A stretch of DNA of 64,000 nt from Natronomonas halophila (GTDB taxonomy: Archaea; Halobacteriota; Halobacteria; Halobacteriales; Haloarculaceae): contig NZ_CP058334.1 in NCBI RefSeq assembly GCF_013391085.1, forward strand, positions 1,302,001 through 1,366,000, written 5' to 3'. Below the pieces are notes generated by a model, which searched no databases, had not been told where the DNA came from, and saw nothing but the letters and a program-made list of their open reading frames with translations. The position numbers and the translations under genes were made by a program. Below, in pieces: positions 26,649 through 41,036 of this stretch; the stretch's first letter is position 1; the number at the start of each line of letters is the position of its first letter.

Positions 26649-27617
26649 TCAGGCCCCCTCCCCGTCGCCAGCGATACCGTTCGGACGCACGAGCAGGACG
26701 GCCACCATGATGACGAACGCGATGGCGTTGGCGTACTCGATGCCGATGGTGATGCCGACGCTGTCGGGAACGTACGGGACGTACGACCCGAAGTCGGTGA
26801 GAAGCCGGATATCGGAGAGGATCGGTGTCAGTTGGTTTATCATGCCGATGAGGAAGCCGCCGAGGACGGCCCCGTAGACCGATCCGATACCGCCGAGGAT
26901 GACCGCCGCGAAGATGATGAGCAAGAGGTTAAAGCCCATCCGGGGAGCCAGCTGGTTGAAGAGGCCGAGGAAGACGCCGCCGGCACCGGCGAGGCCGGCG
27001 CCGATGACCCACGCGACGAGTTTGACGCGGTCGGTTCGGATGCCGCTGACCCGCGCGAGGTCGGGGTTGTCGGCCATCGCACGCATCTTCCGGCCGAGGT
27101 CGGTATGCTGCAACAGCAGGTGCAGGCCGACGACGAGCACGGCCGCCGTAATCACGATTGCGACGTCGTGTTCGGTGATGCGGATGCCGTAGGGAATGAG
27201 CCACTCGATGGGGCGTAGCGTCGGGAGGTCGTACCGCGTGAAGTCGGCGCCGAAGCCCATCTGGATGATGGCCCGATAGACGAAGGCGACGCCGATGGAG
27301 GTGATGAGCATCCCGATAGAGCCCACGTCGAGCGGTTCGTAGATGATTCGGTCCGTAATCACCGCAACGACGACGGCGACGACCATCCCGACCAGCAGCG
27401 CGATGAAAAAGCCGAGCGGGAGGCTCAGGATGCCGCCGGTGATGCCGCCGATGGCGCCGAAGGTGACGAAGGCCCCGTAGGCGCCGACGGTCATCGTGTC
27501 CCCGTGGGCGAAGTTGGCGAAATCCGCGATGCTGTAAATCAACGAGAGGCCGATACTCCCGAGGACGATGATGCTGCTGAACACCAGGCCGTTCGCCAGA
27601 TATTCGAGAAGGGCCAT
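26649..27617 (-). CDS. livH: Branched-chain-type amino-acid ABC transporter permease
   Basis: 322 residues with about eight membrane spans. The N-terminal LGSIGLSLIYSIADFANFAHGDTMTVGAYGAF and the coupling loop GRKMRAMADNPDLARVSGI are typical LivH sequences; GSVYGAVLGGFLIGM is the conserved block near the end. It pairs with LivM. Seven bases separate it from the upstream substrate-binding protein gene. The ATG at 27615-27617 is unambiguous. Confidence 0.93.
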   Translation of the reverse strand: MALLEYLANGLVFSSIIVLGSIGLSLIYSIADFANFAHGDTMTVGAYGAFVTFGAIGGITGGILSLPLGFFIALLVGMVVAVVVAVITDRIIYEPLDVGSIGMLITSIGVAFVYRAIIQMGFGADFTRYDLPTLRPIEWLIPYGIRITEHDVAIVITAAVLVVGLHLLLQHTDLGRKMRAMADNPDLARVSGIRTDRVKLVAWVIGAGLAGAGGVFLGLFNQLAPRMGFNLLLIIFAAVILGGIGSVYGAVLGGFLIGMINQLTPILSDIRLLTDFGSYVPYVPDSVGITIGIEYANAIAFVIMVAVLLVRPNGIAGDGEGA

Positions 27618-32433: not shown

Positions 32434-32506
32434 GTCCGGATAGGGTAGTGGACTATCCTCTTGGCTTGCGGAGCCAGGGACCGGAGTTCAAATCTCCGTC
32501 CGGACG
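32434..32506 (+). tRNA. tRNA-Arg(GCG), integration target
   Basis: Acceptor GTCCGGA / TCCGGAC with discriminator G and no encoded CCA. The anticodon stem TTGGC/GCCAG encloses loop TTGCGGA, giving anticodon GCG (Arg, CGC). The T arm is CGGAG-TTCAAAT-CTCCG. The 3' part from 32463 is repeated exactly at 40710, marking this gene as the attachment site of the integrated element; because the repeat replaces the lost 3' half, the tRNA stays functional after integration. Confidence 0.93.
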
Positions 32507-32507
32507 T
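32463..32507 (+). repeat. attL: 45-bp tRNA 3'-half direct repeat
   Basis: Covers the anticodon loop, T arm, acceptor 3' strand, discriminator and one further base of tRNA-Arg(GCG). It is identical over 45 bp to 40710-40754, and identity stops sharply on both sides (T versus A before; A versus T after). Confidence 0.9.
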
Positions 32508-32509
32508 AT

Positions 32510-32524
32510 GACGGCTTCGCCGTC
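32510..32524 (+). terminator. Hairpin behind tRNA-Arg(GCG)
   Basis: GACGGC-TTC-GCCGTC is a perfect 6-bp stem three bases after the attL repeat, followed by GGTTTTCGG. Plausible transcription stop supplied by the element. Confidence 0.4.
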
Positions 32525-32698
32525 CCGCGGTTTTCGGCTGTGACAAGACAAACAGAACGTCATGTCGCAAGCCAAGCACCAATACGAATACTCTCGAATA
32601 GACCGCCGTCTGGCGATTTCTAATTCCTGTCAGACCAAGCAAAAGCACCAGCGCCGTGTGCCGATTCCCGAACGGAAGCCAAGGAACAGGGTTCTCGC

Positions 32699-33817
32699 AT
32701 GAGTCTCGATGGAGGCGAAATGGAGGGTATCATCCTCCTTCCCGAACCCTCGCGCGCGGTCCTTAGCGAACGCCAGCAAACCGACTACATCGACCATCGG
32801 GAAACGCTGATTGAGTGGTTACTGGTATTCGGTAAGAACCCCGACAAAGCAGAGGGGTACGCACGCGCGACCACCAAGAACACCGCAGAGCGGCTTGACG
32901 CGTTCTACAGGTGGGTGTGGGCCGAATATGATGGCTACACGACCAGCATATCCCACGACCACGCGAACGCCTACATGAAAGAAATCGCACGCCGTGACGA
33001 GGGCAACTACTCACGGAACAACACACAGAGTTCCCTCAAGCGACTGTTCAAATGGCACAAGCACGAGCGCGGTGGGGAACTGTGGGAGCCTGAAATCGTC
33101 TTCTCGGAGCCATCTGGGACGGGAGAGCCACGCGATTACCTGACGCGTGAGGAGCGCGGTCAGATACGTGAGGCGGCTCTTGAATACGGCTCAATCCCGT
33201 CCTACAACAATCTCTCGACCAAGGAGCGAGACAAATGGAAAGCCTACCTTGCACAGCGATTCAGCAAGCACAAAAAGAACGTAACGCCCGATGATTGGGA
33301 CCGAGCGAACAGTTGGAAATTCCCGAGCTTGGTATGGGCAAGTCTCGATGCCGGTCTACGACCAATCGAGGTCGAGCGTGCCCGGACAACATGGGTAGAC
33401 GTTGATAATGCCCTGCTTCGGATTCCTCGGGGTGAGAGTTCGAAGAATGACGGGAACTGGACAGTCAGTCTTCAAGACCGCACAGCGAAGGCTCTGGAAC
33501 GGTGGTTGACCGAGCGCAAGCAGTACGACCTCTACCAAGGTACAGACCGGCTGTGGCTTACCCGGTTCGGGAACCCCTATCAGACGAATTCGCTTCGTCA
33601 AGTCCTAAACCGTCTGTTCGAGAGCGCGGGTATCCCGACAGAAAACCGGAAGGTATCGTGGTACATGATTCGGCACTCCGTGGGGACATACATGGCCCGT
33701 GAAGAAGGCTTGGCAGCGGCCCGAGCACAGTTACGCCACAAGTCGGTTCGTACGACTGCGCGCTACGACAACGCCCCACCAGAGGACAGGAGGGATGCTT
33801 TAGACCGAATGGGCTGA
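32699..33817 (+). CDS. int: Tyrosine recombinase (integrase) of the element
   Basis: 372 residues. A SAM-like core-binding domain covers about 20-150 (TTKNTAERLDAFYRWVW, SLKRLFKWHKHERG). The catalytic domain has Arg in DAGLRPIEVERA, Lys in GESSKNDGNW, the second Arg in WYMIRHSVGTYM, His in AQLRHKSVRTT and the nucleophile Tyr in ARYDN. The first position of the HxxR box is Tyr (YMIR) instead of His. The gene is uninterrupted and lies about 190 bp from attL, reading into the element. It should catalyse integration and excision at the tRNA repeats. ATG at 32699 is used; a later in-frame ATG (MEGIILL) is possible. Confidence 0.92.
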   Translation: MSLDGGEMEGIILLPEPSRAVLSERQQTDYIDHRETLIEWLLVFGKNPDKAEGYARATTKNTAERLDAFYRWVWAEYDGYTTSISHDHANAYMKEIARRDEGNYSRNNTQSSLKRLFKWHKHERGGELWEPEIVFSEPSGTGEPRDYLTREERGQIREAALEYGSIPSYNNLSTKERDKWKAYLAQRFSKHKKNVTPDDWDRANSWKFPSLVWASLDAGLRPIEVERARTTWVDVDNALLRIPRGESSKNDGNWTVSLQDRTAKALERWLTERKQYDLYQGTDRLWLTRFGNPYQTNSLRQVLNRLFESAGIPTENRKVSWYMIRHSVGTYMAREEGLAAARAQLRHKSVRTTARYDNAPPEDRRDALDRMG

Positions 33818-34222
33818 AAATAGCCTAACAAAACGTAAAGCGCCCAACACGCTGAATTAGAGTCGAGCGTTCCGATACATCGAGGGGTATTTTGTCTTAT
33901 ACATAATCATGCATACTCATCCATACGACCCGTTCCATCATCCTCGACGCGTGAGATTTTGGACTCTAACTCGGATTTTAGACGAAGTCTGATGGACTAA
34001 CCCCCGGGGTTGAAGCGCGGAAATAACCTCCAAATTTCGAAAGAATCACGCCTTCTACTGGCGGTTATCGGCACTCTTATGGTTCTGGACCTTGTTTATA
34101 GAGTGAAGGCAGATTCTCGCGGGACTCCCTTTCGAGCAGTCGTGGCTATCGCGTTATTCTCGGAGTGATTCGCCACATCGAGGGGGATGATACCACGGAG
34201 AATTCTTCATTTAGCTCAGATT
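33818..34222. other. Non-coding region between integrase and helicase genes
   Basis: About 400 bp, AT-rich. No ORF I would defend. It contains CTTATACATA (near 33895), several short palindromes and two copies of the word CATCGAGGGG (33878 and 34176). The promoter of the helicase gene, and perhaps a replication origin or attachment accessory sites, would have to lie here. Confidence 0.5.
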
Positions 34223-36223
34223 ATGACGACAGACTCAATCTCAAATAGCGACGGCTACAGCGAATCGACGGACAACTCCCATCAAGTGACCACCGATGAA
34301 GCCCGCGACCGGCTCGAAGGTGCCATATTCTCAGCGCTCGAATCCGGAGAAAACACCCTCATCAAGGCCCCGACCTCCCTCGGGAAATCGTATCAAATCG
34401 CGACGACTCCATGGCGCGAATACCCGGAGGTCACAGGTGGCGACCTCGTCATTCACATTCACCAAACTCGGGATGCACGGGACGAAGCTGTGGCGGAAAG
34501 CAAGGCCGCTGATGGTGTCTCATGTCGTGTTTACGAAGGCCGAGAGGATACCTGTCCAACTGCTGCCGGCAAGTACGATGATGCCCTCACAGCGCCACAC
34601 GGCTACTCTCCGTCTGAGTGGTTCGAGTGGATGTGTGACGTGCGGAAAAACGGCTTCTACTCTGCTCACCTCGAACTGGAGAAATACTGTGATACGCCAT
34701 GTACGGAGAACGGAGACTGTCCAGCCCTCAAGCAGTGGTGGCAAACGCTTCGAGACGACGACGGTAATCCAACGGTCGATGTGGTTCACACGACCGCGAA
34801 CTTTGCTCACGTAGAAGCCCTCACCGAGGACGCAAACTTGGTGTTCGATGAACGCCCTGATTACGCGCTAAACCTGAAGGATTCGGAACGCCAACAGGTC
34901 CGGGATTCAGTCTCGAACCTCCTTGAGTATCGCTCAAATGGCGAGTATGCTATCGCAGACCTAACGACCGCTAACCGCCACGGAAACACCGAAAGAATCC
35001 GAGAGCTACGGACCTTGCTCGACGAGGATGTAAGCCGGGACTGGTATTTCCGCCGGGAGGAAACGCATCGTCTCGCCTCAGAAATCGGATTGGCGATACT
35101 CAACGCAGAGGAAATCATCGAAAACCGATGGGCGGGTGAAGACGTGAACCTGTCAGGCCGAAGAATGGGCCAGTATCAAGGTGTCAAAGTCGTGCTAAAC
35201 AGCAAGGGAAAGCTTCGACACATCCAGTATAACCCTTCTCTCTCCGACGCACGGTGTATCATCGGACTTGATGCGTTCCCCTCCGAGTATCGCTGGCAAC
35301 TCAACACCATGGACGACCTTACGTGTGAGAACGTCTTGCCACCGGCAGACCGGCGTCGATGGCGTCAGGAAGAACGCGGGCTAACGGTCGTTCAAGTCGG
35401 AGATAAGACCCGTTCGTACACGTCCGGGTGGGACGGAGCAGGGGACGAACGTGCAGAAGGACTTATTCGCGCGCTCAGGCGGAAACATGGTGATGAGTTC
35501 CGGACGTGCATCACTGCGGGGAGCATCGAGGACGATGTACGCCGATTCATGCAGGAGGCAGGTATCAAGTCTCCACCACCGCTTGATGGAAAGAGCGTAG
35601 AGCCAACCATGCACTACGGCGGGCAGAACAGTCGGAACGACTTCGAACGCGAAGTGTTGGGGTTGCTCATTGGGTGCATCGACCCCGGCGACAAGAACAT
35701 TCTCGACTTGCTGGCTCTCGGTGGCCGGTCTGCATGGCCGGAGATGACGACTACGGAAGATGGGGAGAGAACTCGAAAGACAGGCCGTTCATTCGAGGGT
35801 CCAGATACGGGTACTGCGCGGGAGATTCTGGTATCTGTTCGTGAGGCGAATATCGCTCAAGGGGCAGGACGGTATGCTCGCAATCCTGACTCGTCGGATT
35901 CTTCGGCACTGGTGTACGTCTGGTCCGATGTTTGCCCGTCGTCGTTGACGGATGAGATTCTCGGGGTTAGCTATCATTCAATCTCAGGCAAGCGAAAGTC
36001 CGTGATGCAGTTGCTTCAGGAGGGCTATCGAACGCGGCGTGAAATTGAGGAGGCGTCTGGTGCGGATAAGTCCTACATCCATGAGTGCCTGAATTCGTTT
36101 CGTGAGGAAGGGCTTGCTGAGGAGAGTGAGGGGACCGAGAAATATGGTGCAAGTGGGTGGAGTTGGGTAGGGCCAAGATGTGGGAGTGAACCATCAGATA
36201 CGCTCGTTGAACTGGATTCCTGA
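34223..36223 (+). CDS. XPD-like SF2 helicase with cysteine cluster and C-terminal winged helix
   Basis: 666 residues from the ATG at 34223 (MTTDSISNSDG); an ATG twelve codons upstream is an alternative. Motif I is KAPTSLGKSY, the Walker B-like motif is LVFDERPDY and motif VI is AQGAGRYARN, the order of superfamily 2 helicases. Between motifs I and II lie cysteines in CRVYEGREDTCP, WMCDVRKNG and KYCDTPCTENGDC, a pattern like the [4Fe-4S] domain of XPD/DinG helicases. The last ~80 residues (MQLLQEGYRTRREIEEASGADKSYIHECLNSF) form a winged helix. Probably the replication or maintenance helicase of the element. Function inferred; no primase motif seen. Confidence 0.72.
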   Translation: MTTDSISNSDGYSESTDNSHQVTTDEARDRLEGAIFSALESGENTLIKAPTSLGKSYQIATTPWREYPEVTGGDLVIHIHQTRDARDEAVAESKAADGVSCRVYEGREDTCPTAAGKYDDALTAPHGYSPSEWFEWMCDVRKNGFYSAHLELEKYCDTPCTENGDCPALKQWWQTLRDDDGNPTVDVVHTTANFAHVEALTEDANLVFDERPDYALNLKDSERQQVRDSVSNLLEYRSNGEYAIADLTTANRHGNTERIRELRTLLDEDVSRDWYFRREETHRLASEIGLAILNAEEIIENRWAGEDVNLSGRRMGQYQGVKVVLNSKGKLRHIQYNPSLSDARCIIGLDAFPSEYRWQLNTMDDLTCENVLPPADRRRWRQEERGLTVVQVGDKTRSYTSGWDGAGDERAEGLIRALRRKHGDEFRTCITAGSIEDDVRRFMQEAGIKSPPPLDGKSVEPTMHYGGQNSRNDFEREVLGLLIGCIDPGDKNILDLLALGGRSAWPEMTTTEDGERTRKTGRSFEGPDTGTAREILVSVREANIAQGAGRYARNPDSSDSSALVYVWSDVCPSSLTDEILGVSYHSISGKRKSVMQLLQEGYRTRREIEEASGADKSYIHECLNSFREEGLAEESEGTEKYGASGWSWVGPRCGSEPSDTLVELDS

Positions 36224-36668
36224 AATCGTTGGGTGTTACACTTAGGGTACTTATGTGGAAGACCCAACGGTCTTACCGACTGCTCCAATTCATCGAGGGA
36301 GTGTTGAACTGAACAGGCGAGGGCGTAGCGGCACGCCGTTCAGATGTAACTAATACAGTCTCGCGGCGTTCGGGGAGGTCGTGGGCTATCTCACTAATAC
36401 CCCGATGTGTAACTCCCTATGACCTACTCGGAGCGTTCAAATGCATCGAGGAGGATACGGCACGAAGTTCCTATCGAGCATTTCACTCGACGTTTAGCCC
36501 CCAACCCATTCGCTGCCTCACCCTCCTCGATGCAGTCGGACGCTCGGAGTCGTTCGGAGAGCCTCGCCACGTCGGTCTTCATTCGACGGCTTCCGTTGGG
36601 CGTACTTCTTAGGGGAAGTATCACACATGGTTATGTTTTTATGTTAAGGACATGGCTATGAATAGAGA
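36224..36668. other. Non-coding region upstream of the restriction endonuclease gene
   Basis: About 445 bp. Two words, TGCATCGAGGAGG (from 36443) and its inverted copy CCTCCTCGATGCA (from 36526), bracket about 70 bp. A minus-strand frame at 36424-36582 could encode 52 residues but lacks support. The right end carries the TATA-like TTTTTATGTT at 36636-36645, 24-33 bp before the endonuclease ATG. Confidence 0.5.
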
Positions 36669-38210
36669 ATGGCGAGGGAAGACACGGACCTTGCAACAGG
36701 GGATTTGTTTGGGCCTGCGCAACTTGATGTATCTGACAACGATAGGTCCGAGCTACCAGTCGTCCTCGAACTCGTGAAGGAGTACGAAGGTCGCCCGTCT
36801 GATTTCGATGATATGGTAGCAAAGCGATTTCTATCAGATAGTAAGAATCCTGAAGACCGCAAAGGGAACTTGCGGTATGGGTTAGGGTCGAATTCAGGAT
36901 ATGGACTCGTGGATGAGAACTTCTACTTGACCGATACTGGTGAAGAACTGTACGAGCTTCGGGACGATGAGGAGGAGTTGTACGAGCGGTTTGCGAAGTA
37001 CATCTTGTTAGAGTGTGATGGCCTGAAACTCATCGAGATAGTGGATGATATGCAGGCAGCCGGAGAAACCCCGACTTTGACATCGATTGCTGACGCCTTC
37101 GAGGAGCAGTACGATATACATCTCCACGGGACAACTTCTGAAGTCAGTCAGATGCGTGCTTGGCTGAATAAGGCGGGCGTAATCGGAACTGGGAGAGACT
37201 ATGACATCGACTGGAGTGTCGTTGAAGACTTGATAGGGATTGATTCTGAGGGGCTGCTCGAATTATCCGAAGTTACCACAGAGCAGCGCGCGTTCCTCAA
37301 AGCACTCGCACGAATCGACCCAGATGAAAGGATTCCCCAAAATATCGTTCGCGAGATTGCGGAGAATGCCTACGGAGTCAGCTTAAACCCGAAAAGCATC
37401 GTCAAGAATGTTCTGACGCCTCTACAGGAAGATGGCTATATCGAGTACGTGAATCCATCAGATGTATCGGGGAAAGCAAATCTGGTGATAGTCACAGACA
37501 AATTCGAGAAGGAAGTTCGCGCACCGATACTGGATAATATAAGTGAACGAACGGGAATTCCTCGACACATCCTCCGTACCTCCTTCGAAGACATCAGGGA
37601 GCAGATGGATGCTGACTCAAAGCATGAGCGGGGGCTGGCTCTCGAAGTATTAGCAGTAAAGCTCGGAAATCTGCTCGGCCTCGATTTCGAAGGGTGGCAT
37701 ATTCGAGGTCGTAATACCGGAGGCGCGGAGGTAGACGTTATTATGGACTCAACAGATGTGTCATTTACGCGCTGGCAAATCCAATGTAAGAACACGAAGA
37801 AGTCTCTCAGGACGAAACATGTGAAAGAGGAGGTTGGAGTTGCCCGGATGCTCCAAACAAATATCATCCTGATGGTCGCAAGGTCTGGAGTATCTTCGGA
37901 CGCTCGACAGTTTGCCAGTCGAATAATGTTCAGAGATAACCTCACGATTCTATTTCTTGAAGGGGATGAATTGATGCGGTTCGACGAGAATCCAGCAGAG
38001 TTGCTGAATTCACTACGGCAAGAAACGAGACGTGTTGGGCGTCTAAAACAACTAACTGAGGATGATATGGTTGAGGTCGCGGAAGACGATGAGCGTGTTA
38101 ACCGAGAAGAGGAGACACTAAAAGAATATCAGGCGGTCATAGAGGAATACCGCGGTTCAGGTGAAGACGAAGAAAAACAGGAGCAGTTGACAGACTTCAG
38201 CGAAGATTAA
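36669..38210 (+). CDS. Restriction endonuclease with N-terminal winged-helix domains (Mrr-like nuclease fold)
   Basis: 513 residues. Residues ~28-95 (VVLELVKEYEGRPSDFDDMV...FYLTDTGEELYEL) and ~190-290 look like winged-helix modules. The nuclease domain spans ~315-430: Glu in GLALEVLAVKLGNLLG, Asp in GGAEVDVIMDS (about 355) and QCKN (about 372), the E...D...QxK arrangement of Mrr_cat PD-(D/E)xK enzymes. The C-terminus is a charged, helical tail rich in Glu. It converges on a methyltransferase gene with overlapping stop codons, making a restriction-modification pair. Recognition site unknown. A leaderless start at 36669 fits the TATA box. Confidence 0.75.
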   Translation: MAREDTDLATGDLFGPAQLDVSDNDRSELPVVLELVKEYEGRPSDFDDMVAKRFLSDSKNPEDRKGNLRYGLGSNSGYGLVDENFYLTDTGEELYELRDDEEELYERFAKYILLECDGLKLIEIVDDMQAAGETPTLTSIADAFEEQYDIHLHGTTSEVSQMRAWLNKAGVIGTGRDYDIDWSVVEDLIGIDSEGLLELSEVTTEQRAFLKALARIDPDERIPQNIVREIAENAYGVSLNPKSIVKNVLTPLQEDGYIEYVNPSDVSGKANLVIVTDKFEKEVRAPILDNISERTGIPRHILRTSFEDIREQMDADSKHERGLALEVLAVKLGNLLGLDFEGWHIRGRNTGGAEVDVIMDSTDVSFTRWQIQCKNTKKSLRTKHVKEEVGVARMLQTNIILMVARSGVSSDARQFASRIMFRDNLTILFLEGDELMRFDENPAELLNSLRQETRRVGRLKQLTEDDMVEVAEDDERVNREEETLKEYQAVIEEYRGSGEDEEKQEQLTDFSED

Positions 38211-39262
38211 TCGTCATTTGGCTCAACGGTAGCGAAATCACCGAAATCAGATTGGTCGTTATTGACCATCTGCTCGATAGTTCCCATCTCCATGAACCTG
38301 AACTGGGACGTTTGAACGTAGTTTTCCTGCCTTTCGAACGCTAACCAGTTGCGACCGAGGTCGGAAGCAACCTTCCCTGTCAGATTCGAACCGGCGAAGA
38401 TGTCCAAAACGATGGGGCGTTCTCCGTCTTCATACGGTGGGTTCTCCGTAAGGAACTTCACAAAGAACTCAGGAAGCTTTCGCGGGAAACGGGCAGGATG
38501 GGGTTCGACATCAAGCGCACGGCAAGCTTTCAGATAGTGAGTATTCGATGCTGTATTAGCGGCTTCAATAAGGTTGTCTGGGATTGACCCTTCTCCATTC
38601 TCAGGCTCGTCGAATTTATCGCTGATATCGTGGCCAGAGGGTCGCTTCTTGTCCTCGTACCCTTCTTCCATCAGCTTCTTTTGTGAATCGGAATACTCCT
38701 GCAAAACTCTGGTATTGTCGGCTTCTGGTCGTTCTTCCTCACCCTTCGAAAGCCACCAGACGTGGTTAACAGCATCTGTGATGCGGATGCGCTCGATAGT
38801 CACCCATTGAGCGGGTGTCGGAAGCTTGGCAGGATTGTACCAATAGCAGTCCTGCGCCAATTCAAAGGGCCCGTCACTACCGGCAAGCGCCGTCAGGAGT
38901 TCGAAGTGGTACGTTGAACGATAGGGTTCTCCTTTCTGCCACCCTCCGCCGATGTCTACAACGAAAGACCCGTCAGGTTTCAAGACCCGATGAACCTTCT
39001 CGGCGAATTCCATGAACCACTCCTCGTAATCCCCGGCGTCCTTGTTGCCATAGTCCTTCTTTCTATTCAGAGCAAAAGGAGGGGACGTGACTACGAGGTC
39101 AATAGACTCATCGGGGAGTTCATCGAGAAGCTCGCGGCTATCACCGTGATAGCTTGCGCCTCCTTCAGCGGTATAATACGCCTCGGAGTCCATCAAACTC
39201 GTTACTTCGGGTACTTCTTCCATCAACGATGTCCTCTCGGGTTCAGTAGTAGAATGCGCCAT
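38207..39262 (-). CDS. DNA methyltransferase, beta class, probably N4-cytosine
   Basis: 351 residues. The catalytic motif TSPPFALNRKKDYGN lies at about residue 59 and the AdoMet motif DIFAGSNLTGKVA at about residue 294; motif IV before motif I defines the beta class, and SPPF (not DPPY) is typical of m4C enzymes. The region between (ERIRITDAVNHVWWLSKG, SGHDISDKF, ARFPRKLPEFFVKFLT) resembles PvuII-type m4C methylases. It should protect the host from the convergent endonuclease. The stop overlaps the endonuclease stop by two bases. The ATG at 39262 is preceded by an AT-rich control region with repeats. Confidence 0.87.
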   Translation of the reverse strand: MAHSTTEPERTSLMEEVPEVTSLMDSEAYYTAEGGASYHGDSRELLDELPDESIDLVVTSPPFALNRKKDYGNKDAGDYEEWFMEFAEKVHRVLKPDGSFVVDIGGGWQKGEPYRSTYHFELLTALAGSDGPFELAQDCYWYNPAKLPTPAQWVTIERIRITDAVNHVWWLSKGEEERPEADNTRVLQEYSDSQKKLMEEGYEDKKRPSGHDISDKFDEPENGEGSIPDNLIEAANTASNTHYLKACRALDVEPHPARFPRKLPEFFVKFLTENPPYEDGERPIVLDIFAGSNLTGKVASDLGRNWLAFERQENYVQTSQFRFMEMGTIEQMVNNDQSDFGDFATVEPNDD

Positions 39263-39575
39263 ATCTAACTTAAGGTTTCGACATCGGGTTCATCGTGCTT
39301 ACATCCCGCAATTTCCGGATAAATCACCCGAGTCAATCTATCCATTCAATTGAGCTGTTTTTGGATAAGTGTTTCTTTCTTGAGCTGACACACCGGCCTG
39401 TTGACACTTTCCTGAGCTGTTTTACGCGCTAACCGTTCGGTAGAAATCTGACTCTCAGGAAGATATTTCGCAGAGGGAGCCACCATATATACGCGCTTGC
39501 GGGCGCACTTAATGTTCTAACTGGGTGTTCCCCTTCATCGAGGCGGTTGTCTCCTTCCTCTCCCTCGATGCGGTG
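39263..39575. other. Control region upstream of the methyltransferase, with TGAGCTG repeats
   Basis: Three direct copies of TGAGCTG start at 39351, 39381 and 39413 (30 and 32 bp apart, near whole helical turns). CATCGAGG at 39536-39543 and CCTCGATG at 39561-39568 form an inverted pair. ATATATAC near 39486 may be a TATA element. No ORF of merit. Confidence 0.5.
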
Positions 39576-39782
39576 TTACTCCGGTTGCTCACACACAGCA
39601 TCACGTAGCTCGTCGTAGAGGTCGGGATGATATTCGCGGAGTAGTTCCACGTCGGTCGTGAGTTCCTCGTTGATTTTGCGCCGAACACGAGAGACAGCCT
39701 GATAGCGGAGGTCGTCATCAGCATCTTCCCCCTCCTCGATGAGTTCCCGTTCCCGGTCGGTCAGTAGGGCGCGTCGGGCCAT
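39576..39782 (-). CDS. Small helical protein typical of haloarchaeal mobile elements
   Basis: 68 residues from the ATG at 39782 (MARRALLTDRERELIEEG) ending in DELRDAVCEQPE. Composition is helical and charged with RYQAVSRVRRKINEELTTDVELL in the middle; it could be a small DNA-binding protein. Similar short proteins starting with LTxxERE are frequent in haloarchaeal plasmids and proviruses (from memory). A TATA-like TGTTAAG and an operator-like array of TGGGA/TCCCA words lie upstream, suggesting regulated expression. Function not known. Confidence 0.62.
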   Translation of the reverse strand: MARRALLTDRERELIEEGEDADDDLRYQAVSRVRRKINEELTTDVELLREYHPDLYDELRDAVCEQPE

Positions 39783-39822
39783 GTCCGTATCCACGCGGGG
39801 ATGACACTTAACAGCCCGCATT

Positions 39823-39845
39823 TGGGAATACTCCCATATATGGGA
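39823..39845. promoter_or_regulatory. Operator-like array: TGGGA / TCCCA / TGGGA
   Basis: TGGGA at 39823, TCCCA at 39832 and TGGGA at 39841 are spaced exactly 9 bp apart. The last two form the perfect palindrome TCCCATATATGGGA (39832-39845). It lies between the divergent 68-residue and SWIM-protein genes, 41-63 bp upstream of the former. Confidence 0.5.
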
Positions 39846-39954
39846 AGTACTAAGTAGGTGGCCGACATACTACTGAGTACGAAGCGCGGTGTCGCCATCG
39901 CAGAAATGGCCGTGTGCTGGAACACACGACCGGGCTTCGTGGGACGCACGAAGC

Positions 39955-40443
39955 ATGACAGAACACGTATCTACGGCTGATAAGCGCATCGTTGCGGAAC
40001 TAAACTTCGGCTCGAAGACTGCCAAGCGCGTCGGATGGGAAGCATGGGAATTCGCCGTTGAGGGGCCTCATCTCGTTCGCGTGACGAATGCCTCCTACGG
40101 CTGCGAGAAAGCCGACCACAGCTACGTCGTCGGCGTAGAAGACCGTGAGGGCCTTCTTGTCCCGGCTGAGTGTGAGTGTCCGGCCGACAAATATAATGAA
40201 GCGTACGCGTGCAAGCACCGGGTGGCTTGTGCGACGACCGCCGGGCCGGTGGTCCTCCAAGCTGCCGTGGACTTCCCCATCGAGGAGGGGGAGCAGTCCG
40301 AGGCTACGACCGTCGCCGACCGGCTTCGGGCTGACGGGGGAAAAGTTACGGAGGGCTGCCCGGAAGGGAACGAAACCTGTGATGGCCCCGATGGAGAATC
40401 CTTCCCCTGCTATGACTGCTACGACGTGGAGGAGGGCCAATAA
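39955..40443 (+). CDS. SWIM zinc-finger protein
   Basis: 162 residues. ECECPADKYNEAYACKHRVA carries the C-x-C-xn-C-x-H signature of SWIM fingers at about residues 84-99. A further Cys-rich tail (GCPEGNETCDGPDG...CYDCYDVEEG) could bind a second metal. Short SWIM proteins are common in haloarchaeal proviruses and plasmids, where a DNA-binding or protein-interaction role is assumed. ATG at 39955 gives MTEHVSTADKRIVAEL; a GTG or ATG further upstream exists but is less likely. Its TAA overlaps the ATG of the following 41-residue ORF. Confidence 0.77.
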   Translation: MTEHVSTADKRIVAELNFGSKTAKRVGWEAWEFAVEGPHLVRVTNASYGCEKADHSYVVGVEDREGLLVPAECECPADKYNEAYACKHRVACATTAGPVVLQAAVDFPIEEGEQSEATTVADRLRADGGKVTEGCPEGNETCDGPDGESFPCYDCYDVEEGQ

Positions 40444-40568
40444 TGGCGCTCCAATCCGACCCCGCACACCTCGGGGATATTGGCGACGAGGAACCTGAGG
40501 AGGAGCCTGACCCCGACCGTATCTACGAGCGTCAGATGGACCAACGACGGGAACGCCGGGAATCGTAG
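40443..40568 (+). CDS. 41-residue acidic ORF coupled to the SWIM gene
   Basis: Starts with ATG overlapping the SWIM gene stop (TAATG) and encodes MALQSDPAHLGD... to QRRERRES, very rich in Glu, Asp and Arg (EEPEEEPDPDR). Translation coupling and haloarchaeal composition support it. No family recognised. It is the last gene before attR. Confidence 0.5.
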   Translation: MALQSDPAHLGDIGDEEPEEEPDPDRIYERQMDQRRERRES

Positions 40569-40709
40569 CCTGTCGCCACAGCCAGCGGTATGGGTTTTAA
40601 ATACCTTCGACCCTTCCTATTGGTTGTCACAGTCCGGAAATCCTCGTCAAAACCGTGACACGGCCCGGGTACTAAAGGGACTACCTGTGCGCCGAACGAA
40701 GTGAGGCGA

Positions 40710-40754
40710 GGCTTGCGGAGCCAGGGACCGGAGTTCAAATCTCCGTCCGGACGT
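40710..40754 (+). repeat. attR: 45-bp tRNA 3'-half direct repeat
   Basis: Exact copy of 32463-32507. Only the 3' part of the tRNA is present (no 5' acceptor or D arm), so it is the scar side of the insertion and not a second tRNA gene. The DNA to its right is the original 3' flank of the tRNA. Confidence 0.9.
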
Positions 40755-41036
40755 TCACTTCTTCGAGGCGCTCCGCGTTGCGGAGCGCCTGCTTCATCGT
40801 TCACGTCCGGACGTGCCCTACGCTCGCTTCGCTCGCGTAGGACTCCGTCCGGACGTTTCTATCGACGCTGATCGCGGTGTAGCGCCGACAAACTCCGTGC
40901 AGATGTTCCGTCGGCTATTGACGCCCGGACGGGTGAGACGCCCGCTTAAAAGACGAGCCTAAATGTCCAATCAGGAATACCTAAAATATTGGCAAGGCCC
41001 CTTATTGCATTCTCGGACCGCCTGTAAGTGAAGGCG
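40755..41036. repeat. Array of partial tRNA-end copies and hairpins beyond attR
   Basis: CTCCGTCCGGACGTT, the tRNA 3' end, occurs at 40741-40755 and again exactly at 40843-40857; a degenerate copy (12 of 15) is at 40893-40907, and ACGTCCGGACGT is at 40803-40814. Between them are hairpins: a perfect 11-bp stem AGGCGCTCCGC/GCGGAGCGCCT (40766-40790, 3-nt loop) and CTACGC/GCGTAG (40818-40840). No ORF is credible here. Confidence 0.6.

Follow-up and report, generated by a model that had tools for sequence, protein, structure and literature searches.

The stretch analysed here, 64,000 nt of Natronomonas halophila (NZ_CP058334.1, positions 1,302,001-1,366,000, forward strand; hereafter the window), carries a tRNA-Arg(GCG) gene followed by a tyrosine integrase, an XPD/DinG-like helicase, a restriction endonuclease with a convergent DNA methyltransferase, a small regulator (p81) and, divergent from the latter, a gene for a SWIM zinc-finger protein, all of them between two direct repeats of the tRNA 3' half (Table 1). 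Very probably these genes form an integrative element of 8.25 kb, best read as a small integrative plasmid, that belongs to a haloarchaeal family in which a shared backbone is combined with exchangeable cargo. That backbone, which marks a previously unnamed family within a known kind of element, is new, and the novelty lies above all in a predicted structured leader RNA that ends at the SWIM start codon.

Table 1. Features of the element and its target gene, in window coordinates.
Feature	Position	Strand	Evidence
tRNA-Arg(GCG), target gene, rebuilt by the element on integration	32434-32506	+	ARAGORN; Rfam RF00005
Attachment repeat covering the 3' half of the tRNA from the anticodon loop on	32463-32507	+	exact-repeat match
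Element-borne hairpin GACGGCTTCGCCGTC directly behind the restored tRNA	32510-32524	+	sequence; native flank known from empty sites
Tyrosine integrase, 372 aa, HSTV-2-like	32699-33817	+	PF00589 E=9e-15; PHROGs; identity to halovirus integrases
36-bp motif CATCGAGG, copy behind integrase	33856-33891	+	motif-model search
36-bp motif, copy upstream of helicase	34154-34189	+	motif-model search
XPD/DinG-like SF2 helicase with C-terminal winged helix, probable replication protein	34187-36223	+	Pfam; AlphaFold and fold search
36-bp motif, copy 63 nt behind helicase	36269-36304	+	motif-model search
36-bp motif, first of inverted pair upstream of nuclease	36422-36457	+	motif-model search
36-bp motif, second of inverted pair upstream of nuclease	36519-36554	-	motif-model search
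Mrr-fold restriction endonuclease, 513 aa, cargo	36669-38210	+	PF04471 E=6e-8; EVD...QCK motif intact
M.PvuII-like N4-cytosine DNA methyltransferase, 351 aa, cargo, convergent with nuclease	38207-39262	-	1boo E=2e-95; PADLOC MTase_II E=2e-105
36-bp motif, inverted pair at p81 3' end	39514-39549	+	motif-model search
36-bp motif, inverted pair at p81 3' end	39557-39592	-	motif-model search
Small regulator p81, divergent from SWIM gene	39576-39821	-	phrog_26393 E=2e-23
Structured RNA leader to SWIM start codon: three-way junction and mutually exclusive start-codon hairpin	39874-39957	+	folding, covariance models
SWIM zinc-finger protein, family signature gene	39955-40443	+	PF04434 E=5e-4; alignment with invariant CxC...CKH
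Attachment repeat, distal copy (partial tRNA)	40710-40754	+	exact-repeat match

Insertion into the tRNA-Arg gene

The two direct repeats are identical over 45 bp at a spacing of 8247, a coincidence of negligible probability (~5e-27 per pair of positions), and the host genome contains only these two copies, one in the tRNA and one at the distal end. GC content is 53.7% between the repeats vs 65.6% across the remaining window. The uninterrupted sites of relatives are direct evidence of insertion: in six genomes spanning several genera and families (G002, G034, G038, G037, G019 and G046) the tRNA-Arg is intact and adjoins sequence matching window 40755-40870, with an RPA gene on the other side of the tRNA in most. 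In the window this native flank (40755 onward) is displaced 8.2 kb from the tRNA, and the element-borne hairpin stands in its place. A further genome (G018) retains the order RPA, DUF7504, tRNA-Arg, DUF309 without the element. An earlier note on this DNA had proposed an integrated element in tRNA-Arg with exact 45-bp repeats, an intact integrase and low-GC cargo, and would have given it up had relatives lacked empty sites; empty sites exist, and each of these descriptions agrees with what we find.

The integrase reading frame is open, starts 192 bp beyond the tRNA and retains the catalytic motifs (GLRPIE, RHS, HKS and the tyrosine in ARYDN). Over its full length the enzyme is 47% identical to the HSTV-2-type integrases of tailed haloviruses, a family described in a review as restricted to Halobacteria (PMC8371274) and found here on compact non-viral elements. 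In G004 (element L050) and in Halorientalis marina (L139), elements with other cargo sit in this same tRNA gene; their integrases are related to that of the window, at 61% and 74% identity respectively, and the attachment repeat in Halorientalis marina is likewise 45 bp long. An element of the SSV type was ruled out, as the integrase frame is unsplit and the attachment site lies outside the gene. With a site-specific integrase, attachment repeats in a tRNA gene and empty sites in relatives, the locus has the features of an integrative element, whose integrase would excise a circle by recombination between the 45-bp copies across the anticodon loop.

Sequences resembling tRNA 3' ends also occur downstream of tRNA genes. 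In about eight genomes (window 40804-40855; L002-L008), tRNA-Arg(GCG) is trailed by a hairpin whose arms are the acceptor 3' strand of the tRNA and its complement, and the tRNA and both hairpin arms vary in concert (C-type vs A-type tRNAs). Extra 17-23-nt copies of tRNA 3' ends, ~90-160 bp apart, were seen downstream of several haloarchaeal tRNAs or attachment copies (L036 12565-12978, L043 18084, L041 17203, L051 10173); these are perhaps scars of earlier integrations.

Backbone, cargo and the nature of the element

The complete gene set listed in the earlier note (integrase, helicase, endonuclease, methylase, SWIM protein and small regulator) is present with open frames, and its statement that structural and transfer genes are lacking is borne out when the genes enclosed by the repeats are scanned with Pfam and PHROGs: neither capsid, terminase, portal or spike genes, as expected of a provirus, nor relaxase, coupling or secretion genes, as expected of an integrative conjugative element, were matched, and no packaging or capsid-interference gene was recognised.

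The helicase, whose conserved start lies at 34223 (M13 of the reading frame) according to the alignment of its relatives, has a superfamily 2 fold of XPD/DinG architecture (VIA-align Z 19.6 to DinG for the AlphaFold model) with a Walker A GKS, a DER box and a motif VI-like QxxGRxxR. As in XPD/DinG enzymes, cysteines recur between Walker A and B; they are conserved in part among the relatives, and an iron-sulfur cluster is a candidate only. The helicase differs from these enzymes in its winged-helix C-terminus and in that plasmid relatives are fused to a DnaG-type primase domain. Long forms of the protein are encoded by the largest gene of circular plasmids of 8.9-10.8 kb (L054, L009 and L010), among them L054, a contig of 9,051 bases with ends that overlap by 127 bases, from a genome of the same genus; those of L054 and L010 carry the primase domain, and the window protein is the short form without it. 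Judged from these relatives, the helicase is a probable replication protein. The fusion of primase and helicase was seen in element L050 as well and, judged by its domains, possibly represents a distinct replication protein of small archaeal plasmids. Direct peptide-pattern scans of genome and viral contigs for the helicase gave no matches and were abandoned; a whole-genome search did find relatives. Two of them lie in the host genome (C1:474951-477014 and 516157-518220), 41 kb apart and with identical match scores, which suggests a recent duplication of another element.

The divergent pair of backbone genes, p81 (conserved start ~39782, product ~68 aa) and the SWIM gene, recurs on a Halomarina plasmid, where p81 is divergent from an annotated SWIM gene in the company of relaxase and coupling protein genes. 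A fold search with the SWIM protein gave no usable match. An integrative plasmid is favoured over a satellite of viruses because helicase relatives sit on circular plasmids and the p81-SWIM pair sits on a plasmid with a relaxase. That the element should be a helper-packaged satellite of tailed haloviruses, using its restriction-modification (R-M) cargo to exclude rivals, would agree with the identity of its integrase to halovirus integrases, with the presence of p81 relatives in haloviruses such as Humcor1, which also carries the leader RNA, and with the absence of capsid genes; but no packaging, capsid-size or interference gene was recognised, SWIM relatives were found neither in viral contigs by the search used nor in phage records, and the helicase has relatives on plasmids and none in the phage records searched, so that we regard a satellite as improbable.

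For an integrative plasmid, the helicase would serve replication of the excised circle, p81 and the SWIM protein would control excision and copying, and the R-M cargo would protect the cell, and hence the element, from other DNA. The R-M cargo itself consists of both genes together with intact catalytic motifs, as in a type II system. The methylase is collinear with M.PvuII across 300 residues, with the TSPPF motif and the order of motifs alike, and by this analogy its probable target is CAGCTG; no clear avoidance of CAGCTG was seen, which made avoidance uninformative as a test of specificity. Unlike in the PvuII system, the nuclease is a 513-aa Mrr-fold enzyme and not the PvuII nuclease, and the genes are convergent. 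The methylase adjoins the nuclease at all homologous nuclease loci outside the window (14/14).

Siblings of the element were gathered through similarity to the helicase or the SWIM protein and not through R-M content. This yielded 26 elements with tRNA repeats at their ends, that of the window included (22 from a first survey and 4 added later), of 5.5-14.5 kb and in 16 tRNA species. Their recurring backbone comprises an integrase, a SWIM gene and, divergent from the latter, a small regulator of p81-like or winged-helix type; often there is also a replication gene, which varies between an XPD/DinG-type helicase, a DnaG-type primase-helicase and a 548-aa protein which has no Pfam match and resembles archaeo-eukaryotic primases by eye only. 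Cargo was surveyed in 23 of the 26, and restriction or defence genes, differing from element to element, were found in 13 of these, including that of the window; others have none. Type IIG enzymes are encoded in L043, L090, L092, L093, L095, L104 and L139, Dam/DpnII in L041, GmrSD in L048, an AspBHI-like nuclease in L091, Hma-like genes in L099 and a methylase with ParB-like proteins in L096; L035, L100 and L102 have no recognised R-M gene. For type IIG enzymes, 6 were counted in 199 kb of element sequence vs 0.14 expected from 348 Eco57I domains in 146 genomes, with 3.4 Mb per genome assumed.

Because the nuclease-methylase pair travels on its own and siblings have either different R-M or defence systems or no such genes, comparison of the loci marks the pair as an exchangeable cargo unit and not as the defining trait of the family. 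The earlier note had suggested a minimal integrative plasmid or satellite kept by R-M addiction; the plasmid part is upheld by the helicase relatives on circular plasmids, and addiction as the defining feature does not fit the siblings. It is likewise unlikely, if slightly less so than a satellite, that we are looking at a defence island which landed beside a tRNA, with mobility a matter of the past and the R-M pair retained by addicting or protecting the host. About half of the examined siblings do carry R-M or defence genes, and R-M genes in Halobacteria have been described as patchy and behaving like selfish elements (PMC6471742); however, recent mobility is favoured by the perfect 45-bp repeats, by the open integrase with its catalytic motifs and by the unbroken reading frames of the helicase, the SWIM protein and the R-M pair, and several siblings do without any recognised R-M gene. 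An integrative family with exchangeable cargo would be a concrete vehicle for these patchy, fast-moving genes, for which the available text of that study names no carrier.

Several points weigh against an integrative plasmid with a common backbone. The element is known from sequence alone, from which we infer the circle and its excision; the helicase is the short form without primase, which makes autonomous replication putative at most. The backbone is partly a product of ascertainment, the siblings having been collected by helicase or SWIM similarity, a replication gene is unrecognisable in some of them, and their cargo, surveyed as it was in 23 of 26, was read from gene calls made with a simple script. 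The closest known counterparts are the cryptic integrated elements of Thaumarchaeota (PMC6563490), which are also small and integrase-bearing, in some cases with replication genes and R-M cargo, and without capsid or conjugation genes; for these, no signature genes were reported, whereas here the SWIM/regulator pair recurs across families and is accompanied by a structured leader RNA.

A predicted leader RNA ahead of the SWIM gene

An alignment of SWIM proteins placed the conserved start of the window protein at 39955 (M23 of a frame open from 39889) and thereby exposed a conserved leader of ~81 nt upstream. Individual leader sequences fold as a three-way junction, and a covariance model built from nine close leaders found a distant subtype and more copies in plasmids and a virus. 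Among 55 aligned leaders 96.3% of cells were paired, two-sided changes occurred at 18 of the 21 pairs, and compensatory cells numbered 206 vs 59 in shuffles; slid controls of the alignment stayed below 50% paired, and an earlier count on 25 sequences agrees with this covariation. The p81-type leaders alone gave no covariation. MAFFT with RNAalifold on all leaders had returned one hairpin only, because the two leader subtypes were misaligned, and was superseded by the covariance models. Two reservations weigh against this structure: the alignments behind the pair counts had been fitted to the structure of the model, which favours it, and the evidence is drawn entirely from sequence. In a separate permutation test made without this alignment (n=43), the closing stem formed by segments 1 and 2 paired better within than between sequences (0/2000 permutations), and the same was found for the start-codon hairpin formed by segments 2 and 3 (0/2000).

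These two helices exclude each other. In the first fold, segment 1 would pair with segment 2 in the three-way junction and leave the start codon free; in the second, segment 2 would pair with segment 3 in a hairpin abutting the start codon. For the window leader the two are nearly equal in energy (-33.0 and -32.1 kcal/mol). Expression of the SWIM gene is probably set by the leader, and the first candidate for tipping the balance would be a metal ion or the zinc protein that the gene encodes. We consider the leader well supported as an RNA structure by its covariation, and its role as a switch, read from the competing helices, a strong candidate.

The model matches in 236 of 392 haloarchaeal genomes, with up to 11 matches per genome; in a phylum-wide sample 11 genomes were positive, all of the haloarchaeal order and none from outside, and the host genome has a single copy, that of the window element. 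Among the 30 best loci, the match ends exactly on the ATG in nearly all, ahead of several kinds of genes, of which 14 encode a SWIM-type motif and many others small cysteine-rich proteins. The tailed halovirus Humcor1 (L145) has two matches (27284-27369 and 34003-34075), one of which has a p81 relative on one side and a small gene on the other.

Could the conserved leader be a DNA element, such as palindromic operators or a single-stranded replication structure? It does lie between divergent genes, where operators are expected, and inverted repeats covary too if DNA-binding proteins change alongside. But the position of its end on the ATG of several kinds of genes, its occurrence ahead of genes in plasmids and a virus, its constant orientation relative to the gene and the conservation of a nested three-way junction with a GAAA-bearing loop speak against this, and a DNA element appears improbable. 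The leader RNA, in turn, is probably the founding member of a new class of natural RNA switches in haloarchaea, in which a three-way junction and a hairpin at the start codon are in competition; across the order, it would control small zinc-binding proteins encoded by mobile elements, by plasmids and by one virus or more. With cis-regulatory leader RNAs and riboswitches it would share a conserved fold, strong covariation and a pair of helices that exclude each other and end at the start codon; it differs from them in that no curated family of Rfam 15 matches it and in its confinement to haloarchaea in the sample, and no description of it was found in the literature searched. The fluoride riboswitch of Thermococcus is the only experimentally determined archaeal one named in a 2021 paper (PMC8241225). 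If a true switch, this short and widespread leader would be among very few structured regulatory RNAs of archaea.

A dispersed 36-bp motif

A ~36-bp motif around CATCGAG is scattered over the element (Table 1). It occurs in 3-13 copies in elements with p81, is absent from most others and is found about once per 50-100 kb in the flanks; among newly found loci it was present in two with p81 and absent from most without. Its copies recur ahead of the replication gene (by ~52-59 nt), past the end of the helicase (by ~63-80 nt) and, as an inverted pair, at the 3' end of p81. Some matches fall in homologous coding stretches, and because a leave-one-out model drifted toward these, we take the intergenic matches of the first motif model as the fair test. 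The idea that p81 alone reads the motif was weakened by distant viral and plasmid relatives of p81 without it and by an element (L095) that has the motif and no p81. Our guess is that the copies are operator sites; replication or recombination sites are possible as well. As a last observation, a 55-kb plasmid record (L150, NZ_CP119995) looks like a tandem multimer of a ~16-kb unit, with identical protein accessions repeated.

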